This document shows, piece by piece, positions 5,326 through 21,310 of a DNA stretch of 64,000 bases (its first letter is position 1; every line of letters begins with the position of its first letter). Under the pieces are notes generated by a model, which had not been told where the DNA came from, did not search any database, and was given only the letters and a program-made list of their open reading frames with translations. The position numbers and the translations under genes are program-made. Source of the DNA: Halobacteriovorax marinus (GTDB taxonomy: Bacteria; Bdellovibrionota; Bacteriovoracia; Bacteriovoracales; Bacteriovoracaceae); contig MAAO01000006.1 of NCBI GenBank assembly GCA_002163155.1, forward strand, positions 992,001-1,056,000. The letters are read 5' to 3'.

Positions 5326-5459
5326 GAAATTCCTATCAAAATGGTCTGTTAAGTTTCAATTTTAGTGAACTTTAATATTTTAGTCTATTTTTACCCTGTT
5401 TTACAACTTATCTAGAACATGATTTCATATAGTTGGAGATTTTTTATTCAATAAGTTAT

Positions 5460-5486
5460 TAAAATTATAAATAAAAGTGCCGATAA
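5460..5486 (+). promoter_or_regulatory. Sigma-28 (FliA)-type promoter
   Basis: TAAA, exactly 15 bases, then GCCGATAA. This matches the flagellar sigma factor FliA consensus (TAAA-N15-GCCGATAA) at every defined position. Its 3' end is 8 bases before the ATG at 5495, so transcription would start almost at the start codon. Confidence 0.75.
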
Positions 5487-5494
5487 AGAGTTAA

Positions 5495-8299
5495 ATGACA
5501 CCTAACATGAAAACAGTCTTTTATACGACTGACCCCATTATCCAGAAATTTTGTTCAACTCTAGAGTTGAAAGGGATTGAAGTTTGTTCAAATCCCTCTG
5601 AAATTATAGCTCTTTTGGAGCAAGATGATCAATGTGTGGTCTTTTTGGACTTTGACTGTCCAGAGCTCGATTGCCTAAACTTTGTTCAAAAAATCAAAGA
5701 GTTAGAGTCTGTCCATACTGTTCTTTTAACAGGTTCGATGGAAGTTAAAGAAATCATTGAGCTTCAAAATACGCAGAATTCTTGTGATGCATACATCACC
5801 AAGCCATTAACAGTCGATATTCTAACTGGCGTGATAAATGATTTCGAACTAGCTCTCTCCTCAGTGAATGATAATGGTACTTCTACGGAAAGCCCTGCGG
5901 AAAATGTTGATCTAACTTTTGTAGGAATAAAGAAAAGTGTACTCCAAGAGAAACTAGATCAAATAGAAGTTGAAGAAGAGCAGGAATCTACCCAAGTCAA
6001 CTTTGATGCGGGAGTAATGAAAGTTGCTAATGAAGTTCGTGATGTTATTGATCAGCATAATCAGGGAGATGGTGATTTTGATAATGACGTTAATAAAGAA
6101 ATTCAAAGAAAGTTTGATGTAGTTTTTGGAAAAGTTCAAATAGAGGAACAAGTTGATGAAGCTTCATTTAATATAACTCCACAAGGTTTTGAAAAACCTG
6201 TAGAGGCAGAGTCTGAAGGAATTAGTTTTGATATGAACTCTGAGCCTGAAGAAACTAAAGAAGAAATCAAAGAAGAAATCAAAGAAGAAATTAAAGAAGA
6301 AAATAAAAGTATACTCGAAGAAGAAACTTCGACTGAGGTAGTTATGTCTGAAGACAATAATGATGAAGGTGGTTTAGAGTTTAACCTACCTGAGGAAGAT
6401 TCAACTGAAGATGAAAGTGATTTATCTTTTGAAGTCAATGAGACTGAAGAATCTGAACCAATTAAAGAGTCTGAAGAAGATGAGCAACCAAAAGAAGAGG
6501 GTGGCCTTGAGTTCAATCTAGGATCTGATGAAGAAGATGGGATAGAGAGCGACGAAGCAACTAATTTTGAGCAAACAGATTCAGGTATTGATTTGTCTGC
6601 AAATAGTGAAGATGAAGGCGGACTTGAGTTTGGAGAAGACGAGGGCCCTGAATTAGACCTTTCTGGTGAAGGTGACGAGGTTGAATCAACACCAACTGAA
6701 GAAACAAATGAAGAGGGTGGTCTTGAGTTTGATAGCACCGATGGTGTTGGTCTGGATCTTTCTGGTGAAGGTGACGTCGCTGAATCAACTCCTATTGAAG
6801 AAACAAATGATGAAGGTGGACTTGAATTTGATAGTACCGATGGTGCTGAACTAGATCTTTCTGGTGAAGATGACGCTGTTGAATCAACGCCTGTTGAAGA
6901 AACAAATGATGAAGGTGGGCTTGAATTTGATAGTACCGATGGTGCTGAACTAGATCTTTCTGGTGAAGATGACGTTGTTGAATCAACTCCTGTTGAAGAA
7001 ACAAATGATGAAGGTGGCCTTGAGTTTGATAGTTCCGATAGTGGGAGCTTAGACCTCTCTGGTAAAGACGATGAAATAGATAATTTAGAAGCCGGAGCAG
7101 ATAGTTCATCTGATTTAGATTTTAGCGCTACAGAAAGTGAGCCAGAAGGCTCGCAAGCTGAAGATTCAATGAGTTTTGATGAATCTGGGGATGTAGGAGA
7201 AACTATTAATTCAATTGTTTCCTCTCCTGAGGATTCAACAGGTGAGTTTGATATGTCTGAGGTGGAGAATGATCCCGCCCCTGAGCCTGTTGTAGCTAGT
7301 GATGAAGATGAAAATGCAATGCAGGAGTTTGATTATAAAACGGAAACAGGATTTACTCCTCCTGAAGAGTTCAGAACTGATACTAGCTCAGAGGCTGAAG
7401 TTGGAGAAGATACAAACCCAACAATAATTGCTCAAACAAAGACTCTGCATGAAGGTGATATCTTTACTGGGAAATTAGAAGCGACCGAGACAATTGCCCA
7501 TGTTGAAGAAGTAACTTCAACGGGAACTTTAGAGTCGGATGAAATTGATATGTCTGAAGTAGGGGAAAGTACTGGAGAGACAGTTGTCGCTACTGGTCTA
7601 AATTTCTCCTCGGCAGAAACTAAGACCCATGCGGTAGAGAAAGTTTCAGTGCAATCAGCAAATGTTTCAGATAACCTCGCTGTAAGAAGTTATGACGAAG
7701 ATGAAATGTTAAGACTTCAAGGAACTATCAGGCAATTACGAGAAGAACGTGAAGAATTAATGAATCAAATGAATCATGTCAAAAGTGAGAAACAACTTCT
7801 AGAGCAAGACAATCTTGGTTTAAAAGCTGAACTTGATGAGATTAAAATCGAATTGGGAATTATTAAGAAAAGAAGCCACGATGAAGTAAATGAATTAAAG
7901 TATCAACTTAATCTAAGTGAAGATAAGAGAGATGTTTACGAAACTAAAGTCAAAACAATGCAAAAAGATTTTGATCGTTTGAATCAAAGGGTACGCATTG
8001 ACTTTAACCAAGTTAAACAAAAAGAAAAAGATCTCGAAAGTAAACTTGAACTTGCTGTTATGGATTCTGAATCACAGGTTCAAACTCGTGATATGAAAAT
8101 ATTAGAATTGAAGAGAAAGATTGATTCTCTTGAATTTAATATGGAAAATACTTCAATACGCGAACATAAGCATAGAGACGATAAATTTAAGCTTGAAGAA
8201 AGATTGAACAAAATTATGAAGACACTCAGAGGGTCTATTCAATTAATTGAAGACGACTTAGATGTTATTGAAAATGATAAGACTAAAAATTTGGATTAA
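5495..8299 (+). CDS. FrzS/AglZ-like protein: pseudo-receiver, acidic repeats, coiled coil
   Basis: Protein of 934 residues in three parts. Residues about 5-120 form a receiver-like domain with an Asp in VVFLDFDCPE and a Lys in AYITKPL, but the N-terminal acidic pair is missing (FYTTDP), so phosphorylation is doubtful. Residues about 140-720 are extremely acidic, disordered and repetitive, including 33-residue units around GGLEFDSTDG. Residues about 735-925 form a long coiled coil. Receiver plus coiled coil is the layout of Myxococcus FrzS and AglZ, polar proteins that direct motility. The acidic linker is reminiscent of RomR. A polarity or motility scaffold is inference. The gene sits behind a sigma-28-type promoter and is followed after 2 bases by a diguanylate cyclase. 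A second ATG at 5507 (MKTVFYTTD) is an alternative start. Confidence 0.7.
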   Translation: MTPNMKTVFYTTDPIIQKFCSTLELKGIEVCSNPSEIIALLEQDDQCVVFLDFDCPELDCLNFVQKIKELESVHTVLLTGSMEVKEIIELQNTQNSCDAYITKPLTVDILTGVINDFELALSSVNDNGTSTESPAENVDLTFVGIKKSVLQEKLDQIEVEEEQESTQVNFDAGVMKVANEVRDVIDQHNQGDGDFDNDVNKEIQRKFDVVFGKVQIEEQVDEASFNITPQGFEKPVEAESEGISFDMNSEPEETKEEIKEEIKEEIKEENKSILEEETSTEVVMSEDNNDEGGLEFNLPEEDSTEDESDLSFEVNETEESEPIKESEEDEQPKEEGGLEFNLGSDEEDGIESDEATNFEQTDSGIDLSANSEDEGGLEFGEDEGPELDLSGEGDEVESTPTEETNEEGGLEFDSTDGVGLDLSGEGDVAESTPIEETNDEGGLEFDSTDGAELDLSGEDDAVESTPVEETNDEGGLEFDSTDGAELDLSGEDDVVESTPVEETNDEGGLEFDSSDSGSLDLSGKDDEIDNLEAGADSSSDLDFSATESEPEGSQAEDSMSFDESGDVGETINSIVSSPEDSTGEFDMSEVENDPAPEPVVASDEDENAMQEFDYKTETGFTPPEEFRTDTSSEAEVGEDTNPTIIAQTKTLHEGDIFTGKLEATETIAHVEEVTSTGTLESDEIDMSEVGESTGETVVATGLNFSSAETKTHAVEKVSVQSANVSDNLAVRSYDEDEMLRLQGTIRQLREEREELMNQMNHVKSEKQLLEQDNLGLKAELDEIKIELGIIKKRSHDEVNELKYQLNLSEDKRDVYETKVKTMQKDFDRLNQRVRIDFNQVKQKEKDLESKLELAVMDSESQVQTRDMKILELKRKIDSLEFNMENTSIREHKHRDDKFKLEERLNKIMKTLRGSIQLIEDDLDVIENDKTKNLD
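6698..7093 (+). repeat. 99-bp in-frame tandem repeat (33 residues)
   Basis: Units begin at 6698, 6797, 6896 and 6995, exactly 99 bases apart, each opening with the codons for EETN(D/E)EGGLEF. A more diverged copy precedes them from about 6605, and the last unit decays at its end. The middle copies differ by only a few bases, so they expanded recently. The repeat lies in the acidic linker of the receiver/coiled-coil protein. Confidence 0.9.
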
Positions 8300-8301
8300 A
8301 A

Positions 8302-9315
8302 TTGAGCGATGAACTACTAGGAAAACATTACAAAAATCTTCTCGATTTCATTTTTAAATGTGATCAGTTGGATAGCCTTAAAAAAGTCTATGAACTTTTA
8401 AATGAATTTTGGATGAAAGAGTTTAACTCTTCTTCTATTATTATTTATAGTGTTTTTAAGGAAGCTTCTAAAAGTCGAAACTGTCGTCAAGTATGGCAAT
8501 CGAAAAATGAAACTAAACCTCTACTGCAGAAAGAATTAAATAGCATAAGAGAATGTTTAAGAGGCAATGAAAAAATTATTCAATCTTGGGCCCATGTAGA
8601 TGCTGATGTAGGTAACCTCTATGTTTTTGCCTGTGGTGAATCTTTTGATCAGGCTTTCTATGCTGGACTTAGAACTGATGATGTGGTACAGACTCAAATA
8701 TTTGATTATCTCGTTACATATCTTTCCAATGCTTCGCAGAAGTACAAGAAGTTTAGTGAAGCAGATAAGCTAAAGTCGCTTGTACATATAGATGATGTAA
8801 CAGGTCTCTATAATCAACGAAAATTTTTAAAAGATATTGACGATCAAATTCTTAAATTCTCAGAAACAGGAGAAGTTTTTTCTGTTGTTTTTATCGATAT
8901 AGATCATTTTAAAAGTGTAAATGATGGTCATGGTCACCTTGTTGGAACGCAGTTGTTATCAGACGTTGCAAAGGTTCTTAAAAGAGTCATAAGGGAAACG
9001 GATCTTTGTTATCGATATGGGGGAGATGAATTTGTTATTGTTGTTCCCACTTGTGATAGCAAGAATGCAAAAGAAGTAGGTCTTCGAATTCTTAGAGGAA
9101 TTACAAAAGAAAGCTTCTATGTCTCAGAAGAAAAAGGACTTAATGGTTCTCATACCTTCAGTCTCTCTGTCTCGGTAGGAGTCGCGACTTATCCAGTTGA
9201 TGCTAAAACTCAGATTGAGATTATTAGTTTTGCTGATAAAATGATGTACAAAGCAAAACAGTCTGGACGAGGAAAGGTCTGCTGTGCAGGAGAAATGTTT
9301 ACTGAGGATGAATAA
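8302..9315 (+). CDS. Diguanylate cyclase (GGDEF)
   Basis: Makes c-di-GMP from two GTP. The start is TTG, two bases after the previous stop, so it is co-transcribed with the receiver/coiled-coil gene. The N-terminal 150 residues look like a GAF-type sensory domain, poorly conserved and without membrane segments, so the enzyme is cytoplasmic. The catalytic domain (about 160-330) begins with DDVTGLYNQRKF and has an intact GGDEF at 240-244. An RETD motif at 231-234, five residues before it, is the RxxD inhibitory site for product feedback. Bdellovibrio uses separate GGDEF proteins for separate life-cycle decisions. This one probably feeds the motility or polarity function of its operon partner (inference). 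Confidence 0.93.
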   Translation: MSDELLGKHYKNLLDFIFKCDQLDSLKKVYELLNEFWMKEFNSSSIIIYSVFKEASKSRNCRQVWQSKNETKPLLQKELNSIRECLRGNEKIIQSWAHVDADVGNLYVFACGESFDQAFYAGLRTDDVVQTQIFDYLVTYLSNASQKYKKFSEADKLKSLVHIDDVTGLYNQRKFLKDIDDQILKFSETGEVFSVVFIDIDHFKSVNDGHGHLVGTQLLSDVAKVLKRVIRETDLCYRYGGDEFVIVVPTCDSKNAKEVGLRILRGITKESFYVSEEKGLNGSHTFSLSVSVGVATYPVDAKTQIEIISFADKMMYKAKQSGRGKVCCAGEMFTEDE

Positions 9316-10395
9316 GTGTTAATTCTTTCAATTAGTGATCTTCATATCGGTAAAGGGAAATTCTTAAAAAATGGTCAACTGAATATCTTAGAAGACTTTT
9401 TTGAAGATCAGCGTTTCTTCGAATTTTGTGAATATTATTCAACTAAAGATAATTATTCAAAAGAAGTTCACCTTGTCCTTAATGGTGATATTTTAAACCT
9501 AATTCAAATTGATTATGAAGGTGTTTTTACTCATATTATCGATGAGATTAATGCGCAATCTGCTATTGAAAGTATTATAAAAGGGCACCCCGTATTTTTC
9601 GATGCATTGAAAAAATTCTTACAAGCACCAAACAAAAAAATCTCCTATGTCATTGGAAATCACGATGCAGCAATGGATTTTAACTTAGCTCAAGTCGTTT
9701 TAAATAAACGTGTCGAGGGAGAAGTAGAATATTGTCATGACCTACAAACATATGGGGTTCATATAGAGCATGGTCATCGATTTGAAGCTATCAACTCTGT
9801 TCCTAAGAATAAGTTCTATGCTGAAGGACCAAATGGGAAGAAAATTTTAAATCTACCTTGGGGAAGCTTATTCTGTATTTCTGTTTTACCAAGACTAAAA
9901 AAAGAGAGACCTTATTTAGATAAAGTCAGGCCAATGAGTTCATACATAAAGTGGTGCTTATTTCACGACTTAGCATTTTTCCTAAAGATGTCAGTTATAG
10001 TCAGTAAATATTTAATAGAATCGAATTTTGATATTTATGTAAGAGAAAATAGAAATTTTAAAACAACTTTAAAAATTTTAAAACAAATTACTATTTATCC
10101 AAGATACGAAAAAAAAGCGAAGAGTATATTGAAAAAAGATATCACACTCCACACTGTTGTTATGGGTCATACTCATTTACAAGAATGGAGAAGATTTCCT
10201 GAGGGGAAGTATTATTTCAATACGGGAACTTGGAATCCAATTCCCTCAATAGATGCAGGACTTCATCAAGACTCAACTTGTTTAACTTATTGCTTACTAG
10301 ATATTCATAAGGAGACTTCAAGCTTACGTGAAGGCTCCTTAAATGTATGGCAAGGTCGCTGGAGACCATTTAAATCAGAGACATCCACCAATTAA
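9316..10395 (+). CDS. Calcineurin-like metallophosphoesterase
   Basis: Cytoplasmic phosphoesterase of 359 residues, with no signal peptide. All metal-ligand blocks are present: DLH at residues 8-10, GD at 57-58, GNHD at 114-117, and GHTH near 284. The start is GTG directly after the stop of the GGDEF gene, so the two are translationally coupled. The family hydrolyses diverse phosphodiesters and monoesters. UDP-diacylglucosamine hydrolase (LpxH)-type and nucleotide-type relatives exist, but the substrate cannot be told from sequence. Linkage to a c-di-GMP enzyme suggests, without proof, a signalling or envelope substrate. Its last 4 bases overlap the convergent permease gene. Confidence 0.87.
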   Translation: MLILSISDLHIGKGKFLKNGQLNILEDFFEDQRFFEFCEYYSTKDNYSKEVHLVLNGDILNLIQIDYEGVFTHIIDEINAQSAIESIIKGHPVFFDALKKFLQAPNKKISYVIGNHDAAMDFNLAQVVLNKRVEGEVEYCHDLQTYGVHIEHGHRFEAINSVPKNKFYAEGPNGKKILNLPWGSLFCISVLPRLKKERPYLDKVRPMSSYIKWCLFHDLAFFLKMSVIVSKYLIESNFDIYVRENRNFKTTLKILKQITIYPRYEKKAKSILKKDITLHTVVMGHTHLQEWRRFPEGKYYFNTGTWNPIPSIDAGLHQDSTCLTYCLLDIHKETSSLREGSLNVWQGRWRPFKSETSTN

Positions 10396-12554
10396 TTACT
10401 ATTTTGTGCTGATTGTACTGAAATTACTGAACATAATGCGGAAGAAATTAAGTAATCGTCATCAGTTCCTAGAATATCTCTAAACCATGAATGCTCAGAT
10501 GCTCCAAAAACTAAGAGATCAAAATCTCCACTTAGTTGTACAATTGATTCGACAATCTCACTGGATTGAAAAACTTTATACTTTGAATTAGATTTCGTAT
10601 CTTCACTAAGTTTCTTTAGTATTTTTTCTTCATTTGAAACATCTTCACTTGAAAGTGATTTATCTAAAACTTTTACAAGTGTAAGTTCTGCTTTATTTGT
10701 TGTGGCAAAGTGATCAGCAGTATCTATAACAATATGTCGATCAGACTCATTATTTATGACGACTAGAACCTTTCTAACGTATCTAACTCCAGCATCTCTG
10801 AAGATGGCGAGGTTTGATTGTAGATGATTTCTAAGCCAACCTACAGGATTGTGAATAGTGAATGTTCCTCTTTTCTTTCCTCCCCATTCTTTGAAAAGCC
10901 ATTTACAGTGCAGTCTCTGACTAATCTCAAAAACACTTCTTGAGAGGTCATGGCAGACAATGGGATCAAAAGTAATGGGAACATTTTGTTCAACAGACAT
11001 GGCTATAATTCTTCTTCTCAAGGATCTTAGATGTACGGGCTCATCACTCATATCTTTAAGATCTGTCTGCTCTGGAACTTCGGTAAAGTGAGCAACCTCA
11101 AGGTTTTCTCCTTCACTCATGGCCGTTGCCATTTCAACTAACATTTCTGGACTTCTTTCATTTCCAAATAAGGCGACCACAACTTTTGCATCTTTAGAGA
11201 GATCTATACTTTTATAAAAATGAGATAGGTCATTACTTTCTACAATAAGATCTGTTCGCTTACCTCTCATTCCAATTACACCTCTTCTTGTAGTTCTCTT
11301 TCTCGAATAGAGTAGATAAAGTAGAATTCCAGGAATTGAAATAAAGAGAATTGCACTTACTATTATAAATCCCATGGCAAAGAGTAGGGTCAGTCCACTG
11401 ACGATTCCTAATATTTGTAAAAATGGATAGAGAGGACTTTTGAACTGAGGCTTGTACCATTGAACTTGTGTTTCTCTAAGTACAATGACGGCTATATTTT
11501 CGAAAACGAAGATAAATAACATAAACCCTGAAGCTAGTTTTGCAATTTTAAAAACATCCATAAAGAGTATTGCTAGGGCAACGATTATACTCGATAGTAA
11601 AATACTCCAAACTGGCGTTAAGTACTTCTTGTGAAGTCTTCCAATGGCCCTAGGAAGTAAGTTATCTCGTCCCATTGCAAAGGGAAATCTGGAAGAAGCC
11701 AAAATTCCTGCATTTGCCATTGAGATCATGGTGAGAACACCAACGCTAGAGATAAAAATAGCAAAACCACTTCCTCCAACAAGTTGAGCAAATGTGTAAA
11801 GAGGCTTGAAGTTACCGATGAGTTCTTCCTTCGGAACACTACCAACCAGTGTAAAAGTTGTTACAACATAGATCAGGGTAACTATTGCCAATGAAAATAA
11901 GATACCTCGGGGAAGATTCCTCTCTGGGTCTTTAATTTCTTCAGCAATGGCCGCAACTTTAGTAACACCAGCATAAGAAACAAAAACAAGAGCGGTAGAA
12001 GATAAGAGTCCACCAAACCCGTTTGTCATAAAGGGGGTTGTGAGTGTTGCGTCATAGTGAGCTATTCCTGCTCCACTAAGTACAAAGAGTGAACCTATAG
12101 CAAGTGCTACAACAAACATGAGGGCACTACTTACTTTACCAACTCCAAATATATTTAATATCGTAATAAGAATTAAAGAAACAATTGCCGTAGGAATAAG
12201 TGGAACATTGGCCAAGATGGATAGGTAAGCCCCGAATCCAATAAGTGCAAAAGCTGCCTTTAAAAGAAGAGATAACCAAAGGCCTAGACCAGCTACTGTA
12301 CCTACAAGTGGACCGAATGTTCTTTCAAGATAAACATACGTACCACCTGAAGTTGGCATTGCTGTAGCTAGCTCTGATTTTGACATTGAAGCTGGGAGAA
12401 CACATAGAGCAGCAAGAAGGTAGGCTAACCATACTGAAGGACCTGTTTGTGCTATGGCTAAACTTGGAAGAACAAAAATTCCACTTCCTAACATTGCGCT
12501 TATACTAATTGCTACAACTGAACTTAAACCTAATCTTCTCTCAAGAGTTTTCAC
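10392..12554 (-). CDS. APC-family amino acid permease with universal-stress-protein-like tail
   Basis: Inner-membrane transporter of 720 residues. Residues about 1-420 hold roughly 12 hydrophobic segments with the APC motifs GSGIFVLPS in helix 1 and SGGTYVYLERTFGP in the helix 2-3 region. The C-terminal 300 residues are soluble, with two stretches resembling universal stress protein domains (KVVVALFGNERSPEMLVEMA and RKVLVVINNESDRHIVIDTA starts). Such fusions occur in cationic or branched amino-acid and metabolite transporters, where the tail may bind nucleotide. The exact substrate is unknown. For a predator that takes up prey-derived amino acids a broad importer is plausible. Convergent 4-base overlap with the phosphoesterase gene. 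Confidence 0.88.
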   Translation of the reverse strand: MKTLERRLGLSSVVAISISAMLGSGIFVLPSLAIAQTGPSVWLAYLLAALCVLPASMSKSELATAMPTSGGTYVYLERTFGPLVGTVAGLGLWLSLLLKAAFALIGFGAYLSILANVPLIPTAIVSLILITILNIFGVGKVSSALMFVVALAIGSLFVLSGAGIAHYDATLTTPFMTNGFGGLLSSTALVFVSYAGVTKVAAIAEEIKDPERNLPRGILFSLAIVTLIYVVTTFTLVGSVPKEELIGNFKPLYTFAQLVGGSGFAIFISSVGVLTMISMANAGILASSRFPFAMGRDNLLPRAIGRLHKKYLTPVWSILLSSIIVALAILFMDVFKIAKLASGFMLFIFVFENIAVIVLRETQVQWYKPQFKSPLYPFLQILGIVSGLTLLFAMGFIIVSAILFISIPGILLYLLYSRKRTTRRGVIGMRGKRTDLIVESNDLSHFYKSIDLSKDAKVVVALFGNERSPEMLVEMATAMSEGENLEVAHFTEVPEQTDLKDMSDEPVHLRSLRRRIIAMSVEQNVPITFDPIVCHDLSRSVFEISQRLHCKWLFKEWGGKKRGTFTIHNPVGWLRNHLQSNLAIFRDAGVRYVRKVLVVINNESDRHIVIDTADHFATTNKAELTLVKVLDKSLSSEDVSNEEKILKKLSEDTKSNSKYKVFQSSEIVESIVQLSGDFDLLVFGASEHSWFRDILGTDDDYLISSALCSVISVQSAQNSN

Positions 12555-12635
12555 AAAGCCTCACTTAATTATTAGTAATTATTTTGTCATACTTTAGAAA
12601 ATAAGTCATGTGATTGAGAAAAGATGTCTACGAAA

Positions 12636-13496
12636 TTACTGCCAAATACTTACTTGGACAAAGAATTTGCCTTTATTGCTATCAAAAGTTGTATAAAATT
12701 CTAAAATGGACTCTCTAGAGCTTAATAATTCAGTGTGACCAACGCCAAAAATGCTATTAATCTCATGAACTTTATCACCAGAACTATTGAGCATTTTCTT
12801 AGTTTTAGTTACTAAAGTTTGAATGAAAGTTTCAAAGATTTCATCAGTACTTTGAATTGAAGTATTATCTATGTTTTCTAAAATATATTCTTCAAAAGTA
12901 CTACTCGGAAATGCAACAGTTATAATTCCATTAAATAATTCTGAATGTATAATAATACATCCATAATAGTCATACTCCTGATGAACTTCTGGGTTTAACT
13001 TCTGTGTTGTTTCTTTTTTTATGTCTTTAAAGTTCCCAATTGTTTGAAGAATATCTTTAAAATTCATAATAACTTTGTTTACAAAAGTAGTATCTATCAT
13101 TTTCTTAGTTTTTAAACAAACCAATGGGGATTTATTTAAGGCCAATCGCAGACTACTCACAGTAACAGGTTTCTCTAACGAGTAAATATGATCAAAGTGC
13201 TGCTTTGTTTTTTCAAGTAAGTTCGTTGAGGAGCTCACGATTATAATAGGAGTTTCTTGATTGTAATGACTCCTTCTAATGGTTGAGATGAATTCATCTC
13301 CATTCACTTTAGGCATATTATAGTCTGTAAAAATATATTCAAATTTCTGATTTCTAGATTTTAAAATACCTTCCATGCCATCCTTTGCTACAACGACATT
13401 GACCTCTCTTATTTTAGAAATAAGCTTAGCGAATAAAACTAGAAAGTCTGGGTCATCATCCACAACAAGAATGGATTGAATAATATTAGATTTCAT
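12636..13496 (-). CDS. Receiver domain fused to CheX-like phosphatase domain
   Basis: Signalling protein of 286 residues. The receiver domain (about 8-122) has acidic pair VVDDD, phosphoacceptor Asp58 in FTDYNMP and Lys109 in YSLEKP. The second half (about 130-285) matches the CheX/CheC-type fold: TTFVNKVIMNFKDIL at the start, then a beta-rich region with GIITVAFPS, and a helix with IFETFIQTLVTKTKKML. CheX-type proteins dephosphorylate CheY. The classic ExxN catalytic pair is not obvious here. A receiver with a phosphatase-like tail may act as phosphate sink or regulated phosphatase for the neighbouring island (inference). TTATCGGT just upstream reads ACCGATAA on the coding strand, 6 bases before the ATG. 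Confidence 0.8.
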   Translation of the reverse strand: MKSNIIQSILVVDDDPDFLVLFAKLISKIREVNVVVAKDGMEGILKSRNQKFEYIFTDYNMPKVNGDEFISTIRRSHYNQETPIIIVSSSTNLLEKTKQHFDHIYSLEKPVTVSSLRLALNKSPLVCLKTKKMIDTTFVNKVIMNFKDILQTIGNFKDIKKETTQKLNPEVHQEYDYYGCIIIHSELFNGIITVAFPSSTFEEYILENIDNTSIQSTDEIFETFIQTLVTKTKKMLNSSGDKVHEINSIFGVGHTELLSSRESILEFYTTFDSNKGKFFVQVSIWQ

Positions 13497-13593
13497 AGAT
13501 ATTTATCGGTTGAGTAGGCTAATTAATGCTCCGATTTAATATATATTGAGATTAAATTATGGCCAAAGAAATGTTTAATATTTGAATTTGCTC

Positions 13594-13620
13594 TAAAAAA
13601 GTATATTGAAAAACCGAAAT
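13594..13620 (+). promoter_or_regulatory. Possible sigma-28-like promoter (weak)
   Basis: TAAA, 15 bases, then ACCGAAAT. The -35 part is exact, and the -10 part matches GCCGATAA at 5 of 8 positions. It ends 6 bases before the ATG at 13627, the same geometry as the strong site at 5460. On its own this is weak evidence. Confidence 0.3.
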
Positions 13621-13626
13621 AATAGT

Positions 13627-15537
13627 ATGGAGAATATTCTAGTCGTAGATGACGACAAAGACATTCATTCACTTATAGAGCTTGAATTTATCAAGTCTTC
13701 TTATCAAGTATATTGCGCTAAAAGCGTTGAAGAGGCCATTGAGCTCTTAAACGAAGAAGAATTCATATGTATCTTTTTAGATATTATTCTTGGCGAAAAT
13801 GAAACTAGTGAATCTGTAATTAAACATGGAAAAGAAACCCCCATATTTCTGATTAGTGCTCATATTACAGATAAGTATAAAAATAATATTTTACACAAAG
13901 AAACTAATATTGTTGATTGCATTAAAAAGCCTTTTATTAAAGGGGACTTAGTAAATAGAATAGATGAACTAAAAAAGACGATGAAACTTTCTGATGAACT
14001 TGGAAATATGAAAAAAAACTTAGAATCCTCTAAAACTGAAACAGAGAATCAGTTGGTGAAGGGAAATATGAGTAAAGAGGAAAGAGAGGTCTTACAGGGA
14101 GAGGCTGAAGAGCTTAAAGAAGAATTGCAAAGAATTTCTGACTTTTCAGGAAAACTAACTGATGAAAGTCAAATTATTCCAGGCTCGAAAGAAGATTTAG
14201 TGGGAGAGGGGCAACGGATTAAGGGCTCTAAAGAGGACCTTACCGATGAGAGTCAACTTGTAAAAGGTAGTAAAGAAGATTTAGCAGAAGAAGCTCAACG
14301 AATCAAAGGAATTGGTGAAGATTCAGCTGAAGAAGTTCACCTTATAAAAGGCGATAAACAAGATCTCGCAGAAAAAGGTCAACTTATAAAAGGTGAAAAG
14401 AAAGATCTCGCAGAAAAAGGCCAACATATAAAAGGTGATAAACAAGATCTCGCAGAAAAAGGTCAACTTATAAAAGGTGAAAAGAAAGATCTCGCAGAAA
14501 AGGGCCAACATATAAAAGGTGATAAACAAGATCTCGCAGAAAAAGGCCAACTTATAAAAGGTGAAAAGAAAGATCTCGCAGAAAAGGGCCAACATATAAA
14601 AGGCGATAAACAAGATCTCGCAGAAAAAGGCCAACTTATAAAAGGTGAAAAGAAAGATCTCGCAGAAAAGGGCCAACATATAAAAGGTGATAAACAAGAT
14701 CTCGCAGAAAAAGGCCAACATATAAAAGGTGATAAACAAGATCTCGCAGAAAAAGGTCAACTTATAAAAGGTGAAAAGAAAGATCTCGCAGAAAAGGGCC
14801 AACATATAAAAGGCGATAAACAAGACCTCGCAGAAAAAAATAAGCTTATAGCAGGTAATAAAGAAGAGTTAGAAAATGTTAACGGAGATAAATCATTAAA
14901 AAAAATAGAGAGTCATGAAGTTGAGGTAAATATTTTCTCTGATGAAGATGAGAATGAATTTGATAAAGATGCCCTCTCCATCGAAAAAGATGCAAAGAAA
15001 GTAACTGAGCAAGAGCATAAACAAAGAAAGGAAATAGCCTATCTTAAGAAGAAAGGTGCAGGAGCTAGGAATCTCACGGGCTACACTAGACTTATGGTTG
15101 CAGTATTACTTGGAACGAAAGTAGAAATAGAATTAGCCCTTGATGAAGGCGAAAGGTTAGAGGATAAGTGCAAAGGAGGGTATACATCTCTTCATCTCGC
15201 TGTGATGAAAGGTAATTTAGACGTTGCTGAGTATTTAATTTCCAAAGGTGCAAAAATAACTGCAAAAGATAATGAAAACAGGGAACCGCTATATTTTGCT
15301 ATTCAAAAAAACGATTTTGAATTAACTAAGTTCTTAGTTGATAACGGCGCCCCTACCAATAGACGGATAAAGGGGAGAACATATTTAGTTTTAGCTACTT
15401 TGAAGAAAAATGAAGAAATGTTTAACTTTTTTATTTCAAAAGGAATTCCAATTGAGGCCCGTGATGATCATGGATTTAATGTGAATTACTATTTAAGGAA
15501 ACTGAAAATAGAACACTTTTTAACTAAAGCAGCTTAA
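13627..15537 (+). CDS. Receiver - 14-residue repeat - ankyrin protein
   Basis: Protein of about 636 residues with a layout I do not recognise. The start chosen is the ATG giving MENILVVDDD; a TTG at 13606 would add 7 residues. The receiver domain (about 1-120) has Asp52 in IFLDIILG and a Lys in CIKKPF. Residues about 186-409 are sixteen or more 14-residue repeats of the type GDKQDLAEKGQLIK, highly charged, alternating GDKQD and GEKKD forms. The C-terminus (about 470-630) holds about four to five ankyrin repeats, the clearest being GGYTSLHLAVMKGNLDVAEY. Ankyrin repeats bind proteins, so the molecule looks like a phosphorylation-controlled adaptor with a long spacer. Ten bases later comes a stand-alone receiver gene. 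Confidence 0.8.
   Translation: MENILVVDDDKDIHSLIELEFIKSSYQVYCAKSVEEAIELLNEEEFICIFLDIILGENETSESVIKHGKETPIFLISAHITDKYKNNILHKETNIVDCIKKPFIKGDLVNRIDELKKTMKLSDELGNMKKNLESSKTETENQLVKGNMSKEEREVLQGEAEELKEELQRISDFSGKLTDESQIIPGSKEDLVGEGQRIKGSKEDLTDESQLVKGSKEDLAEEAQRIKGIGEDSAEEVHLIKGDKQDLAEKGQLIKGEKKDLAEKGQHIKGDKQDLAEKGQLIKGEKKDLAEKGQHIKGDKQDLAEKGQLIKGEKKDLAEKGQHIKGDKQDLAEKGQLIKGEKKDLAEKGQHIKGDKQDLAEKGQHIKGDKQDLAEKGQLIKGEKKDLAEKGQHIKGDKQDLAEKNKLIAGNKEELENVNGDKSLKKIESHEVEVNIFSDEDENEFDKDALSIEKDAKKVTEQEHKQRKEIAYLKKKGAGARNLTGYTRLMVAVLLGTKVEIELALDEGERLEDKCKGGYTSLHLAVMKGNLDVAEYLISKGAKITAKDNENREPLYFAIQKNDFELTKFLVDNGAPTNRRIKGRTYLVLATLKKNEEMFNFFISKGIPIEARDDHGFNVNYYLRKLKIEHFLTKAA
14182..14853 (+). repeat. 42-bp in-frame tandem repeat array (16 units)
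   Basis: Sixteen consecutive 42-base units in frame. The first four (14182-14349) are diverged. The next eleven (14350-14811) are nearly identical at DNA level and mostly alternate in two forms, giving an 84-base higher-order period; one place has two GDKQD units in a row. The sixteenth decays. Each contains GATCTCGCAGAAAA or a close variant. The near-identity indicates recent expansion, and copy number may vary between strains. Confidence 0.93.
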
Positions 15538-15547
15538 GGGAGAGGTA

Positions 15548-15934
15548 ATGAATTTAGAATTTTTAGTTATAGACGATTCTTTAGAAATGGTTGATTTACT
15601 TGAGAATTTTATTGAAAACGGAAAACTTGGACATGGTCACTCATTTGAAAATGAATTTGCTGCCATGGATTATATCTCTGAAAATAAAGCTGATGTATTA
15701 ATCATTGATGTAAATTTAAATCATATTAATGGTTTCAAGTTGGGAAGTATGATTAGGGCGATGCTTAAGTTAGAAATACCAATTATATACATTTCCTCGA
15801 ACGATCTTTATTTGAAGGATTTCTACAAAGCAGATCAAAGAAATACTTATTTTATGAATAAACCTTTTGATAAGAGAACTTTTGAAAGTGTTATTTCGAA
15901 GATGACTGGAGGTCAAGAAGCATTTACCGGATAA
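15548..15934 (+). CDS. Stand-alone receiver (CheY-like) protein
   Basis: 128 residues forming only a receiver domain: acidic residues at VIDDS (8-11), phosphoacceptor Asp54 in LIIDVNLN, conserved Ser/Thr in IYISSND, and Lys in FMNKPFD. No output domain, so it must act by protein contact or as a phosphorelay intermediate. AGGGAGAGG precedes the ATG as a good ribosome binding site. It lies 10 bases after the receiver-ankyrin gene on the same strand, so the two are likely co-transcribed and may share a kinase. The next gene converges with 6 bases between. Confidence 0.88.
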   Translation: MNLEFLVIDDSLEMVDLLENFIENGKLGHGHSFENEFAAMDYISENKADVLIIDVNLNHINGFKLGSMIRAMLKLEIPIIYISSNDLYLKDFYKADQRNTYFMNKPFDKRTFESVISKMTGGQEAFTG

Positions 15935-15940
15935 TTGATA

Positions 15941-16636
15941 TTAGAGACCTACTAACATTTGTCTTACACATTTCAAAGTTTCTTCGTCTTCAACATTAAA
16001 TGAGACGTGTATTTGATATCCTAAAGGTTCATTAGTTCGTTCTACATCTGTAACTACCCCTCGTATAAATTTTTCTTTAGAAAGATCTTTGATTAAATCT
16101 CCTGCTAAGTGAACTGTATTTCCTTTGGCAATTAAATTTTTTGAGAAGAGTAAAATTCCTTCTTCATTAAGTGAAATTACATTCATCTCCAAATCCAACA
16201 TTGCTTCACTAGTTGCTGCAGGAGCTGCAAAATAAGGCAGGTAGGTCGAGTCTTTGAACATATCGTCGAAGGCTGAATTCACCTTCGCTGAGACGGTGGT
16301 TCTATCAAGGGGTTTCGTGATAAAGTCGTCTGCTCCAAGCTTTAAGGCCTCTTGTATGTCTTCCTCTGCTGTTCTTCTGGAGATCATGATAATTTTGATT
16401 TCTTTCCCTACAATTTTTCTTAGCGTCTTTAAGATATTATATCCAGCACCTTTAATATCTTGTAGATTAAGGTCAATAAGACACAGGTCTGGTTTTATAT
16501 GTTTAAATTTTTCGAAAAATTCGTTAAATGTTGTGCTTGTTGTAACGATATATCCTTCTTTAGTAAGAATATCATCTAATAATTTATTAATATCATTGTC
16601 ATCATCAATGGTTAATACCCTTTTATATTTCATCAT
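15941..16636 (-). CDS. Response regulator with C-terminal PilZ-like domain (1)
   Basis: 231 residues. The receiver (about 5-122) has VLTIDDDND, Asp55 in CLIDLNL and Lys in FITKPLD. The tail (about 135-230) is beta-rich (LDLEMNVISLNEEGILLFS, YQIHVSFNVED) and looks like a PilZ-type barrel, but the RxxxR and DxSxxG c-di-GMP-binding motifs are not visible. Binding of c-di-GMP is therefore doubtful. Its start codon overlaps the stop of the preceding regulator by one base. It is last in a four-gene minus-strand operon (receiver-HD, HPt, two regulators). Confidence 0.8.
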   Translation of the reverse strand: MMKYKRVLTIDDDNDINKLLDDILTKEGYIVTTSTTFNEFFEKFKHIKPDLCLIDLNLQDIKGAGYNILKTLRKIVGKEIKIIMISRRTAEEDIQEALKLGADDFITKPLDRTTVSAKVNSAFDDMFKDSTYLPYFAAPAATSEAMLDLEMNVISLNEEGILLFSKNLIAKGNTVHLAGDLIKDLSKEKFIRGVVTDVERTNEPLGYQIHVSFNVEDEETLKCVRQMLVGL

Positions 16637-17316
16637 TACACTTTCTTCTTTTGAATCTTTCTAATGGATTGTAGAGTTTTTTCGGGGATTCCAATGATTT
16701 GAACAGTCGTGTCGTAAAGCCCTGGAGTAATATCTCTTGAGGCTTGATAGACTTGCAAATGACCTTTTGGTATATTTAACTTTTCAAAAAAATCACTATG
16801 AATTTCTATGTATTGCTTGCTTGAAAATTTTACTTTTGATCTAATGGAAACAGAAAGTTCATTAAATTTAATAATTTCAGCAGGAATTTGTACCGAAAGC
16901 TTTTGTTGATTTTCTTCAAAAACTATTTCATCAAACTCATGATCTCCAATATTACCTTTAACAGTAGAAACTAAGGTTTGATTATTAAATGGCTTTACGA
17001 GATAACCTTGAACACCATATTCTTTGGATAACATTATTGCTTGTTTGCTACTGTCACTACTAATAATATAAACGTTAATTTTATCTAGTAAGTCTAGTCC
17101 AACCATTTTGTCTAGTAATGTATATCCAAATTCGTCTATAAGGTTTATATCTAGTAAGACTAAGTGTGGTACATATTCTATAATAAGAGAAAGTGCTTCC
17201 TCAGTACTTTTAGAGAGAAGTACATTGTAACCAAAGTTTGTTAGAACTTTATGAATAAAAATTTGAATCTCAGAGTCATCATCGACAACTAGGATATTTT
17301 TTTTAATTTTAAACAA
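16636..17316 (-). CDS. Response regulator with C-terminal PilZ-like domain (2)
   Basis: 226 residues and the same plan as the next gene downstream: receiver (about 7-125) with VVDDD, Asp56 in LVLLDINL and Lys in YLVKPFN, then a beta-rich tail (about 145-215: LSVSIRSKVKFSSKQYIEIH) that may be a divergent PilZ-type barrel without recognisable c-di-GMP motifs. It starts 2 bases after the HPt gene, so it is an obvious candidate acceptor of phosphate from that HPt protein. The two tandem regulators probably arose by duplication, though their tails are now quite different. Confidence 0.78.
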   Translation of the reverse strand: MFKIKKNILVVDDDSEIQIFIHKVLTNFGYNVLLSKSTEEALSLIIEYVPHLVLLDINLIDEFGYTLLDKMVGLDLLDKINVYIISSDSSKQAIMLSKEYGVQGYLVKPFNNQTLVSTVKGNIGDHEFDEIVFEENQQKLSVQIPAEIIKFNELSVSIRSKVKFSSKQYIEIHSDFFEKLNIPKGHLQVYQASRDITPGLYDTTVQIIGIPEKTLQSIRKIQKKKV

Positions 17317-17318
17317 TA

Positions 17319-17627
17319 TTAATCCATGTTTACGTATTCAATGTTTACATTTTCAACATATTCTCTGAATTTCTGTATCAAAGGTCCAATGGCCTCCACA
17401 TCATTGTTCATAGCTAGCTGTTCAATGTTCTTAGCAATTTTGCCAAGTTCTTCAAAGCCATAACCACCAGAACTTCCACTAACCTTATGACCAATTTTTT
17501 CGATTTCTGAAACATTTTTTTGCTCAAAGAAATCAGATAGTGCGGTAATATCTTTTTGTCTATTAGATAGAAATCCTGGAACGATGTCCTTTAGGTCTTC
17601 ATCAATAGTGACAGTGAATTTTTCCAT
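17319..17627 (-). CDS. HPt phosphotransfer protein
   Basis: 102-residue helical protein with the HPt signature GHKVSGSSGGYGFEELG. His47 is the predicted phosphorylation site, close to the family pattern HxxKGSSxxxG. There is no catalytic domain, so it shuttles phosphate between receivers. AAGGAGG directly before the ATG overlaps the stop of the receiver-HD gene and gives a strong ribosome binding site. It is the only HPt protein seen in the island, and ten receiver domains lie within 6 kb, so it is the likely hub of a multi-branch phosphorelay (inference). Confidence 0.9.
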   Translation of the reverse strand: MEKFTVTIDEDLKDIVPGFLSNRQKDITALSDFFEQKNVSEIEKIGHKVSGSSGGYGFEELGKIAKNIEQLAMNNDVEAIGPLIQKFREYVENVNIEYVNMD

Positions 17628-17636
17628 AAATCCTCC

Positions 17637-18953
17637 TTAATTTAATTTGTTACTAAAAACATATTGCATGGTATGCCATATCTTATCGAAATTTTTTCCA
17701 GAATATTTATATTGAGATAATGTTAAGATATCTCCGACTTTTCCAAAGTCAAAATCACATCTATATATTTCACATGATACAAAATGTGATGCCTGAAAAA
17801 TTGCTTGAAGATTATTTAATTGACTGAGATCTTTCTTTCCAGCAAAAGGGTAGTCCTCGTCACCTGAGTGATGAAAACTAATAATGTCAGAAATATCACT
17901 ACCGAACTGATCTAGCTTTTCTAATTCATCATCCAGTATTTGATGATGTTTGATAGATTCTTTTTCTTCAATGTTTAATTGATTTATTTTCTTCGGTTCT
18001 AAATCATGAATATAAGTGATCTTATTATTTAGTAACATAATGTCGTGTAATAATGCTGCTGTAGAAACTTTCGAGAGATTTATACTGTCTATATTCATTT
18101 GCTCACACAAAAAAGATGCTATACAAATAGTCATATAACTATGATCATAAGAAAAATCTTTTGCGTTAAGAGCTTTTGCTAAGAGATTGTAAAGTTTGTC
18201 TTCTTTCTTTATATCATTAATCAAGTTTTCTGTTGTTGCTTGTGCCGTTTTTAATGATTGTTTAGTGAGGCCAAAGGAGGAAATTTGCGCGTTTAAAAAG
18301 AGATGGTTTTTCTTAATGGCTTCATAGCTATCAACTTTCTTACTTTTATTTTGATTAAATAGTGACGATTGATCGTATTCAGTTAAAAAATCATTTTCAT
18401 CTGCTGTTTTTATATAAAGAAATTTCATACCTTTTGCTATGTATTTATTTAATTGCTCTGAGCTGTAAATTTCATTGGAATTAAATATTTTTACATAATG
18501 ATTTGAATTAAGAGAGATGTAGATGGGTATTTTAGTTTCGTTCCATCTTATGAAATGATAAATGGCAATTGGAGTATACTCACTTCGTTCAGGATTAAGT
18601 AATTCAAGTAAGAAATTTTTAAATTCTTTTAGTGAAGTCGGTTTTCTTATATGATGTCTATTCTCATCCAATTTGTAGAATTCTAACTCTGTTGACTCTC
18701 TTGAAGTAAAGAATACAAATTGATTGTTTCTGTTATTAGATATGCTCCAATGACTGTAGACTTCTTCTCCTGTCCCATTTGGAGCCATGTCGAAATCACT
18801 AATGACAAGGTCTAGTCCTTGTTCTTGAATGACTCTCTTAGCATCCTCAGGCGTATAAGAATAGAAAACCCCACCATCCTCAAAAATTGATTCTAAGACA
18901 ATAGAGTAAAGATTAATAATGTTTGGATCGTCATCAACGAATAGTACTTTCAT
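17637..18953 (-). CDS. Receiver domain with HD (degenerate HD-GYP-like) output
   Basis: 438 residues. Receiver at about 1-120 with VDDDP, Asp53 in VISDFDMAP and Lys in HIRKPTS. A middle region of about 100 residues has no match that I know. The C-terminal part (about 255-430) is an HD-type helical domain: DHSYMTICIASFLCEQM, then ALLHDIML with the HD pair, then FHHSGDEDYPF where HD-GYP proteins have HHExxDGxGYP. The GYP signature is broken, so c-di-GMP hydrolysis is uncertain; it could be a binding-only or protein-interaction module. First gene of the operon with HPt and two PilZ-like regulators. Confidence 0.8.
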   Translation of the reverse strand: MKVLFVDDDPNIINLYSIVLESIFEDGGVFYSYTPEDAKRVIQEQGLDLVISDFDMAPNGTGEEVYSHWSISNNRNNQFVFFTSRESTELEFYKLDENRHHIRKPTSLKEFKNFLLELLNPERSEYTPIAIYHFIRWNETKIPIYISLNSNHYVKIFNSNEIYSSEQLNKYIAKGMKFLYIKTADENDFLTEYDQSSLFNQNKSKKVDSYEAIKKNHLFLNAQISSFGLTKQSLKTAQATTENLINDIKKEDKLYNLLAKALNAKDFSYDHSYMTICIASFLCEQMNIDSINLSKVSTAALLHDIMLLNNKITYIHDLEPKKINQLNIEEKESIKHHQILDDELEKLDQFGSDISDIISFHHSGDEDYPFAGKKDLSQLNNLQAIFQASHFVSCEIYRCDFDFGKVGDILTLSQYKYSGKNFDKIWHTMQYVFSNKLN

Positions 18954-19101
18954 ATTTATTTCTCTTTATTATTTTGCCATGTGCTTATAGAAACATTTAA
19001 AATTTTTCCTAAAGATTAAACTTGTTAGACGTGTTTCTGATGAGTTGGAGAAATAGATACTATAATTCTTTTAAAATACGTCGATACTTAGTTTAAGTAC
19101 T

Positions 19102-20574
19102 ATGAATATTTTAATAATTGATAAAATTACCATGTCTAGAAAAGCCATTAAAGAAGAACTTTCTTATGTTGGTTATGACGTAACTGAGGCAACCGATTTA
19201 AACGGTGGGATGAAATCTTTTCGTTCCAAGAAGTATGATTTGGTTATCATTGCTGTAGAAAATGAAGGGTTAAGTACATGTAGGGCCATTCGTGATTTAG
19301 AGAAAAGTAAAAATGCAGACGACATAGTTCCTATCATTTGTATGTCAGTCTGTGATGAATTCTCTATTCGATTAAAAAGTTTTGAAGCCGGAGCAAATGA
19401 GTTCTTACCAAAAGATCACCGTGCTGAAGTTATATTGAAAGTTAATTCTATTTTGAAGCCCGATTTGTTATGGAAGGGGACGGTCATAGCTATAGTTGAA
19501 GATGATAGAACAACGGCAAAATTTCTAACCTACCTTTTAAAAAATAAAGGAGCTGAAGTTTATTGGTTTCAAAGTGCTATTGAGTGTTTTGATTTTTTAA
19601 AAGAGTCTTCTGTTGATTTAGTAGTTACTGATAATTTTATGCCTAATATGACTGGTTGTGAACTCGTCGTTAAAATTCGAAAGGAGCTTGGTCTTAAAGA
19701 ACTTCCTGTCGTTTTTACCTCTGCGACTAAAGAGAAGGAATCAGTTTTGGAGTTTTATAGGAGTGGAGCAAATGATTTTATTTCTAAACCTTTTTTGAAA
19801 GAAGAGGTTTATACAAAGATTAAACTCCTGCTTGATAATAGAAATAAAACTAAAACAATGAATAAATACATTGAAGAGCTTAGTAGCTTAAATGAAGTGA
19901 AGGATCAGTTTCTAGCAGTCTGCTCTCACGATTTACGGGCGCCTCTGAATTCAATAATAGGCTTCTCCGATGTCTTAATACAAGATGATGAAATTGATCA
20001 TGATTCGTTGGATATGGTTAAAGTAATTAACAAGTCAGCATTGTCTCTTCTTGGAATGGTTAATGACTTATTAACGTTAAGTGAAGTTCAGCTAAAAGGC
20101 GACTTTACTATATCAGAAATAGATATTTTTTCACTGGTTAATGACTGCTTCGATCAAATGAAAGGGTCTATGACAAAAGATATTGCATTTACTTTAAACG
20201 ATAATTCTGATCACGCCACAATTCTAGGTAATGATTCTATGCTTAGAAGGACTTTCACAAACCTTTTGTCTAATGCTTATAAATTTACTGCACATGGTGG
20301 AACCATTTTATCTCATATATGGATTGATAGTGATTACCTGTATTGTACTATTCAAGATACGGGAATCGGAATCCCTAAGAAGGATCTAAAGAGTTTGTTT
20401 AGTAGAATGTCTGGAGCAGGTAGACATGGACTAGAAGGACAAAAGAGTACTGGAATTGGATTAAGTATAGTTAAAGAAATTTTGGATAAACACAATGCCA
20501 TCATAGACGTTGACAGCGAAGAAGGTGTTGGAACAATTTTTACGCTTGGTTTTGAATATAAGAAGGGAGCTTAA
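19102..20574 (+). CDS. Hybrid histidine kinase: receiver-receiver-HisKA-HATPase
   Basis: 490 residues, soluble. The first receiver-like domain (1-120) lacks the phosphoacceptor (Ala51 in VIIAVENEG) and one acidic-pocket residue (IIDK), so it is inactive and probably sensory or structural. The second receiver (about 126-245) is intact: IVEDD, Asp177 in VVTDNFMP, Lys229 in ISKPF. HisKA has His276 in CSHDLRAPLNS. The ATPase domain shows NLLSNAYKFT, DTGIGIP and GTGIGLSIV. With no transmembrane or PAS region, it would be controlled by phosphorylation of its own N-terminal receiver. It is the only kinase within the island and its stop abuts the ATG of a stand-alone receiver. Confidence 0.92.
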   Translation: MNILIIDKITMSRKAIKEELSYVGYDVTEATDLNGGMKSFRSKKYDLVIIAVENEGLSTCRAIRDLEKSKNADDIVPIICMSVCDEFSIRLKSFEAGANEFLPKDHRAEVILKVNSILKPDLLWKGTVIAIVEDDRTTAKFLTYLLKNKGAEVYWFQSAIECFDFLKESSVDLVVTDNFMPNMTGCELVVKIRKELGLKELPVVFTSATKEKESVLEFYRSGANDFISKPFLKEEVYTKIKLLLDNRNKTKTMNKYIEELSSLNEVKDQFLAVCSHDLRAPLNSIIGFSDVLIQDDEIDHDSLDMVKVINKSALSLLGMVNDLLTLSEVQLKGDFTISEIDIFSLVNDCFDQMKGSMTKDIAFTLNDNSDHATILGNDSMLRRTFTNLLSNAYKFTAHGGTILSHIWIDSDYLYCTIQDTGIGIPKKDLKSLFSRMSGAGRHGLEGQKSTGIGLSIVKEILDKHNAIIDVDSEEGVGTIFTLGFEYKKGA

Positions 20575-20946
20575 ATGAAAATTCTGGTTTTAGATGATAG
20601 TGAAGATAATTTAAATTTAATAAGGCTTTATACTAAAAAGTCGGATGATGATTTCAGTTTCTCTTCCTCTGGTGATGAAGCTTTAGAGTTGATCGAAAAT
20701 CAACAATTCGACTTACTATTTATGGATATACAAATGCCAGGCATGAGTGGCTTTGAAGTTTTAGAAAAAGTTCGATTTTTAAATTTTGGAAAGGAATTAT
20801 TTGTATGCGCTTTAACAGCATTTTCTTTTGATTCTGAATTAGAGAAAATTAGATCTTCTAGTTTTAATGATTACTTACAAAAACCAATTCTAAGGGACCA
20901 GTTTTTAAAGTATATAGGAGATTTATCACTAAAAGATGCTAGCTGA
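20575..20946 (+). CDS. Stand-alone receiver protein, kinase partner
   Basis: 123 residues, receiver only: VLDDSED, Asp51 in LLFMDIQMPGMSG, Thr in CALTAFS, Lys in YLQKPIL. The ATG immediately follows the TAA of the hybrid kinase with no gap, so the two are translationally coupled and this is the most likely direct target of that kinase. Its last 8 bases overlap the 3' end of a convergent receiver gene, an unusually tight tail-to-tail arrangement. Confidence 0.9.
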   Translation: MKILVLDDSEDNLNLIRLYTKKSDDDFSFSSSGDEALELIENQQFDLLFMDIQMPGMSGFEVLEKVRFLNFGKELFVCALTAFSFDSELEKIRSSSFNDYLQKPILRDQFLKYIGDLSLKDAS

Positions 20947-21310
20947 AAAAACCATCTAGCAGCTCTTTTAGTTTAGCGAAGTCAATTGGCTTTGATATAT
21001 ATCTTGAAGCTCCCATTTCTTTTGCAAGGATTTTTCTTTCATTATCGGTGTAGGCAGAGGCCATGAAAACAGGGATTGTTTCATGATTTTCTATAATATA
21101 CTTTAATAATTCAAATCCATCCATTTCTGGCATATTTATATCAGTTATAACTAAGTCTAGCTTTTCTTGTGTTTTGATTACTTGGATTGCTTCTCTACCA
21201 CTATTTGCATAATAGAGTTTGAACTTTTCATTTTTAGTTTCTTTTTTAAACATTCGACTAAAGAGAAATTGAATTGATTCTTCGTCATCTACTATGAGTA
21301 TATGTTTCAT
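20939..21310 (-). CDS. Stand-alone receiver protein
   Basis: 123 residues, receiver only: IVDDEES, Asp57 in LVITDINMPEMDG, Ser in FMASAY, Lys in YISKPIDF. It is the most canonical receiver in the island. It converges on the kinase operon with an 8-base overlap of coding ends, so reading through either way would produce antisense RNA. A sigma-28-like box (TAAG-N15-ACCGATAC) ends 7 bases before the ATG, and a perfect 14-bp inverted repeat lies upstream of that. Confidence 0.9.
   Translation of the reverse strand: MKHILIVDDEESIQFLFSRMFKKETKNEKFKLYYANSGREAIQVIKTQEKLDLVITDINMPEMDGFELLKYIIENHETIPVFMASAYTDNERKILAKEMGASRYISKPIDFAKLKELLDGFFS

Follow-up and report, generated by a model that had tools for sequence, protein, structure and literature searches.

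A conserved five-gene core in a receiver-dense locus of Halobacteriovorax marinus: a likely phosphorelay with divergent PilZ-like outputs

Positions 12636 to 21310 of a 64,000-nucleotide stretch of the Halobacteriovorax marinus genome (the window) contain ten genes, here named g1–g10, nine of which encode receiver (REC) domains. Do these genes form one phosphorelay and, if so, which of them take part? The first-pass annotation proposed a multi-branch network in which one histidine-phosphotransfer (HPt) protein and one soluble kinase serve several of ten receivers, with CheX-like, ankyrin, PilZ-like, and HD outputs and without a DNA-binding branch.

Composition of the locus

Pfam Response_reg matches fell in g1–g5, g7, g8 (twice), g9, and g10, and the other Pfam domains were Hpt (g6), HisKA and HATPase_c (g8), ankyrin repeats (g2), and HD (g7). 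No DNA-binding domain was found among g1–g10 by Pfam. The g7 REC scored below the Pfam cutoff (E 6e-5), yet it keeps the full active site. A complete site (acidic pair, Asp, T/S, Lys) was present in nine of the ten RECs, including those of g4, g5, and g9. In the first receiver of g8 (REC1), D-K replaces the acidic pair and Ala replaces the phosphoacceptor Asp. Thus, the count of ten receivers in nine genes stands, but only nine look phosphorylatable because g8-REC1 has no phosphoacceptor Asp. Likewise, the absence of a DNA-binding output and the presence of one HPt protein with His47 were borne out, the latter being single only locally, as the genome has 13 HPt matches.

Ten RECs in 8.7 kb make this the densest spot of its contig, compared to 142 REC matches in the 4.55-Mb genome, or about 0.27 per 8.7 kb. 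A second REC/HPt-dense cluster in the same genome, with 8 RECs per 8.7 kb, lies at about 4674–15352 of locus L268 (G000 contig C9, 112001–130000) and contains double-receiver proteins, a stand-alone HPt, a REC-REC-HK-REC-HPt protein, and a 915-aa hybrid kinase. Within the window, positions 5495–8299 encode a protein of 934 aa whose N-terminus gives a weak receiver match; its middle is long, acidic, and repetitive, and its C-terminus resembles a coiled coil. Together with genes for a GGDEF protein and a calcineurin-like phosphoesterase, its gene forms a row immediately upstream of the cluster, an arrangement kept in the genus and in genome G040.

The minus-strand row g7-g6-g5-g4 has gaps of 9, 2, and −1 nt, the g8–g9 gap is 0 nt, the g2–g3 gap is 10 nt, and g8 and g7 are divergently transcribed. 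The operon coupling noted earlier holds for these three closely spaced groups, but the cluster comprises at least five transcription units rather than one because of g1, g10, and the strand changes. Promoter and terminator scans gave no excess over shuffles, and no tRNA or Rfam RNA was found in the window.

The kinase gene g8 (19102–20574, plus strand) encodes a soluble pseudo-REC–REC–HisKA–HATPase_c protein with His276 in the kinase and Asp177 in the second receiver (REC2), and its H, N, G1, and G2 boxes are conserved in 14 homologues. Where the annotation had a kinase with its own receiver, there is indeed one kinase, but it carries two N-terminal receivers, one degenerate and one intact. 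None of seven sequences from the genus and the sister genus has the REC1 phosphoacceptor Asp, the genus labelled g12 (a genus label, not a gene) keeps the Asp and has lost the acidic pair, and the domain is intact in the distant homologues at L105 and L159. Because these features are lost, half-lost, or intact in different relatives, REC1 seems to have degenerated in stages to a pseudo-receiver.

Directly downstream, g9 (20575–20946, plus strand) encodes a stand-alone REC with Asp51. The two genes are separate abutting ORFs and do not form the single polypeptide of a hybrid histidine kinase. At L159, a g8 homologue carries a third, C-terminal receiver, giving REC-REC-HK-REC in one ORF; g8 and g9 therefore look like a split hybrid kinase. 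In a tree of 56 receivers, g9 fell among hybrid-kinase receivers with moderate support (UFboot 90), apart from g4 (92) and g5 (99), and the remaining receivers of the locus lay outside both groups. The FastTree result was in agreement but less well supported, the placement of g9 among hybrid-kinase receivers reaching 0.59. NCBIfam receiver-subtype scans gave many unspecific matches, and for g9 they provided no more than a lead. Intermediate and terminal receivers could not be told apart by the S/T-Y/F criterion (PMC9981736); the g9 protein of the window has Tyr at this position. The stand-alone HPt g6 (17319–17627, minus strand; Pfam Hpt E 7.5e-8) carries the predicted phospho-His47, which is invariant in 20 orthologues.

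The two core output genes, g4 (15941–16636, minus strand; REC with phosphoacceptor Asp55) and g5 (16636–17316, minus strand; Asp56), each add a C-terminal domain to the receiver. That of g4 matched a PilZ profile built from relatives over most of its length (hhalign 70.6%, E 3.9e-5; unrelated controls 0–1%), compared to E 0.17 for the PilZ match in Pfam. The g5 domain had no direct match to the PilZ profile (3.3%) and is linked to it only through g4, with which it aligned at 96.4% (E 1.2e-9). Whole-model structure searches with g4 and g5 (mean pLDDT 90 and 87) returned receiver domains only among the matches listed, and searching PDB sequences with a profile of the g4 C-terminal domain yielded no usable match. 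The c-di-GMP motif, RxxxR plus [DN]xSxxG, was carried in full by 0/20 g4 and 0/20 g5 orthologues, versus 17 of 27 canonical PilZ domains of relatives. Because none of the 20 orthologues of either protein has RxxxR together with DxSxxG, the g4 and g5 domains are probably not c-di-GMP receptors and probably act independently of c-di-GMP; the label 'PilZ-like' is therefore no sign that they sense this messenger.

The five other genes are accessory. The 286-aa g1 (12636–13496, minus strand) joins a Pfam REC to a C-terminal part that matched a CheX profile (hhalign 77.9%, E 1.8e-5, 63 columns, from two sequences only); the match was lost once two g1-like proteins were added, and the catalytic ExxN of CheX is absent at the aligned place in g1 (segment EIFETFIQTLVTK). 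The 643-aa g2 (13606–15537, plus strand; Pfam REC and Ank_2) contains a 42-bp tandem repeat of about 14.6 copies (14254–14867) between receiver and ankyrin repeats, with a 14-aa unit resembling LIKGDKxDLAEKGQ, and its length varies strongly among congeners, which have 378–506 aa. Within the genus, no other protein of the set is as well conserved as the stand-alone REC g3 (15548–15934, plus strand; 73–80% identity). In g7 (17637–18953, minus strand), a REC and a conserved middle domain precede a degenerate HD domain (Pfam HD E 2.5e-7) that keeps HD and three further His residues and has DYP, DYS, or LYP in place of GYP, which puts it outside the HD-GYP class. Last, g10 (20939–21310, minus strand) encodes a stand-alone Pfam REC with Asp57. 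The earlier ankyrin and HD labels were thus confirmed by Pfam, and 'PilZ-like' and 'CheX-like' are, as judged by profile comparison, weak but specific matches, although both domains are devoid of the known functional motifs.

Conservation of the core and its cassette

The annotation had proposed conservation of the neighbourhood in relatives as a check, and this was found: the same genes flank the cluster in all five genomes of the genus and in two further genera. These flanks are an APC-type transporter and nadE/trmFO, detected by tblastn in four congeners and in G013, a genome of another genus; gene maps showed like flanks in G040 and five genomes of genus g12, except that the left neighbour in G040 is a calcineurin-like gene instead of the transporter. 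Among the 12 genomes with a g8 orthologue, g4, g5, g6, g8, and g9 are adjacent in all 12, and the other genes are present less often (g10 in 9, g3 and g7 in 7 each, g2 in 5, and g1 in 2). Within the genus, g1 occurs in two of five genomes, with an orthologue only in G002, and g2, which is genus-specific, in five of five, with none in G013. In six of the 12 genomes, from genus g12 and G040, an extra protein of about 360–395 aa with two C-terminal receivers is encoded between g9 and g10 (L070 14067–15158, L071 13328–14503); for the first ~115 residues of the L070 protein, Pfam gave no match.

Content, order, and orientation are conserved across genera at 30–50% protein identity. The cluster is not random, and the idea that receiver genes simply built up by chance, with no common function, in a receiver-rich genome with 142 REC matches and a second dense cluster is very improbable; it is already contradicted for the core by this conservation and by recurrence of the g6-g5-g4 cassette at other genomic positions, but for the accessories it may still hold.

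Adjacent g6-g5-g4 genes recur in many other genera of the family (L077, L079, L081, L083, L084, L085, L088, and L089), and related arrangements occur in other families (L104 and L110). A profile search of 291 genomes of the phylum found the g4-type domain in 50 at E < 1e-8, about 14 of which trained the profiles, the rest being independent genomes from further genera. In 43 of these 50 genomes, g5 lies in tandem on the same strand, and in 31 a g6-type HPt lies within 8 kb, mostly at the same ~1.4-kb spacing. No match to the HPt-g5 segment was found in plasmids.

Sensor kinases join this cassette in several ways. At L149, L150, and L151, an HK-REC or HK-REC-REC protein ends in an HPt and is followed on the same strand by g5 and g4, with one extra receiver gene between fusion and g5-g4 at L150. 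The phospho-His is present in all three fused HPt domains; that of L151 was recognised by the profile made in this analysis and not by Pfam. At L157, HK-REC, HPt, g5, and g4 stand in a co-oriented row, at L079 HPt, g5, and g4 are followed by CHASE-HK-REC, and at L116 and L117 PAS/GAF hybrid kinases adjoin the g5-g4 pair. Beside the L084 cassette (genome G019), positions 9154–9852 encode a REC-Trans_reg_C (OmpR-type) regulator, and a DNA-binding branch may therefore exist in other genera.

Proposed phosphate route and its alternatives

Because operon linkage, fusions, and the grouping of g9 agree, the kinase, the HPt, and several receivers probably belong to one system. The locus contains an intact histidine kinase, an HPt with a conserved His, and a hybrid-kinase-type receiver, the elements of a four-step phosphorelay, and the reading that we find likely is a relay from g8 to g9 to g6 and from there to g5 and g4. 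The cytoplasmic kinase g8 would autophosphorylate on His276 and phosphorylate g9 at Asp51, g9 being the former C-terminal receiver of a hybrid kinase that became a separate protein; g9 would phosphorylate His47 of g6, which would in turn phosphorylate two terminal regulators, g5 at Asp56 and g4 at Asp55. Through their divergent PilZ-like domains, g5 and g4 may then bind other proteins. The N-terminal receivers of g8 would be inputs that tune the kinase, with REC2 phosphorylatable and REC1 a degenerate protein-contact module. The HPt with g5 and g4 would be an output module, wired in other genera to membrane or PAS/GAF sensor kinases, and g1, g2, g3, g7, and g10 might be lineage-specific additions that act as further outputs or as phosphate sinks and receive their phosphate from this HPt, from this kinase, or from others. 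We infer the phosphotransfer steps, their direction, and the role of the PilZ-like domains from the observed domains, active-site residues, linkage, fusions, and phylogeny.

Individual steps could be filled differently. REC2 of g8 could replace g9 as relay intermediate; published work notes, however, that it is response-regulator profiles, not hybrid-type ones, to which kinases with N-terminal receivers correspond (PMC9981736), a pattern that fits REC2 as a probable input, not an intermediate. Another of the dozen other HPt domains of the genome could also serve these receivers.

A broader alternative makes g6, or g8, the phosphodonor of all nine competent receivers, acting as parallel outputs and phosphate sinks. 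All of these genes form a cluster that has been inherited vertically between constant flanks, g7 shares an operon with g6-g5-g4, other genera have g7-like HD proteins about 2 kb or less from the cassette (L077, L081, L084, L088, and L089), and this topology is known from MrrA of Caulobacter (PMC5964349). However, some or most core-bearing relatives lack g1, g2, g7, and g10, neither fusions nor co-operonic arrangement link g1, g2, g3, and g10 to the HPt, and the receivers besides g4, g5, and g9 fall outside both tree groups, and we regard so wide a network as unlikely. Rated slightly below it is the fuller description of a purely post-translational multi-branch phosphorelay confined to Halobacteriovorax-like bacteria, in which one soluble kinase and one HPt would serve up to nine competent receivers with outputs that act by protein contact, namely twin divergent PilZ-like proteins, ankyrin, HD, and CheX-like domains, and with no transcription factor.

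Ranking lower again is the possibility that the cluster consists of at least two neighbouring systems that work independently, with g8, g9, and REC2 as a two-component unit and HPt-g5-g4 fed by a kinase elsewhere. Several genera have HPt-g5-g4 without a nearby kinase, and g8 and g7 are divergently transcribed. In several genera outside those labelled g1, g10, and g12, a profile scan of the fetched flanks found no kinase beside the cassette, for example at L077, L081, L084, L085, L088, and L089; the HPt must therefore be fed from elsewhere there, and the same may hold in the window, a point that also weighs against the favoured relay. Against such independence, g8 is beside the cassette in 12/12 genomes, and at other loci the HPt upstream of g5-g4 is part of a kinase polypeptide.

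We thus favour the relay from g8 through g9 and g6 to g5 and g4, in which the claim that one HPt and one kinase serve several receivers survives as one system, but with evidence tying the HPt only to g9, g5, and g4. The ten-receiver network of the first-pass annotation is accordingly reduced: the five-gene core is solid, and the five accessories, which have positional linkage to the HPt at most, should count as candidates rather than members of the relay. Some congeners lack g1, g7, and g10. On sequence comparison, several extra receiver genes around the core are additions of this lineage only.

Significance and relation to known systems

The phylum is known for predatory bacteria, and the cluster points to specific proteins that could be tested as regulators of motility, adhesion, or predation. 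Other PilZ proteins act on pili, flagella, or gliding machinery, and motility or attachment would be the first place to look for a role of g4 and g5. The cassette recurs across many genera of the phylum, re-wired to different sensor kinases, and offers a natural series for the study of phosphorelay splitting, fusion, and expansion. The joining of receivers to PilZ-like domains devoid of the c-di-GMP motif suggests that phosphate may replace the second messenger as input. We found no published REC-PilZ/HPt system or Halobacteriovorax phosphorelay in the open literature searched, and as far as these papers go the HPt plus twin REC-PilZ-like cassette is an undescribed output module.

Among the relatives, a Bdellovibrio bacteriovorus-type locus (L099, genome G189, which we take to be strain HD100) has an HPt about 41% identical to g6, beside a 1132-aa hybrid kinase. 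There too the HPt is in an operon with a Cache/PAS-HK-REC protein and a receiver, but no g4/g5 pair lies beside it. The likeness to PilZ c-di-GMP receptors consists of the profile match over most of the g4 C-terminal domain, whereas the window proteins carry no RxxxR plus DxSxxG pair.

Like the four-step relays of hybrid kinases (ArcB, BarA, and TorS type, and CckA-ChpT-CtrA/CpdR), the proposed pathway comprises a histidine kinase, an intermediate receiver, a His-phosphotransfer domain, and terminal receivers. ChpT is a single phosphotransfer protein that feeds two receivers, CtrA and CpdR (PMC9981736), and the proposed feeding of g5 and g4 by g6 resembles this branch. Unlike in those relays, the intermediate receiver in the window is a separate protein, the kinase has two N-terminal receivers, and the outputs are two REC-PilZ-like proteins rather than a DNA-binding regulator. 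In the MrrA hub of Caulobacter, too, a stand-alone receiver connects kinases with a phosphotransfer protein; MrrA is common to at least six kinases, and its phosphotransferases, PhyK and LovK, are kinase-like (PMC5964349). The g9 protein differs from MrrA in that it abuts a single kinase and is followed by a true HPt.
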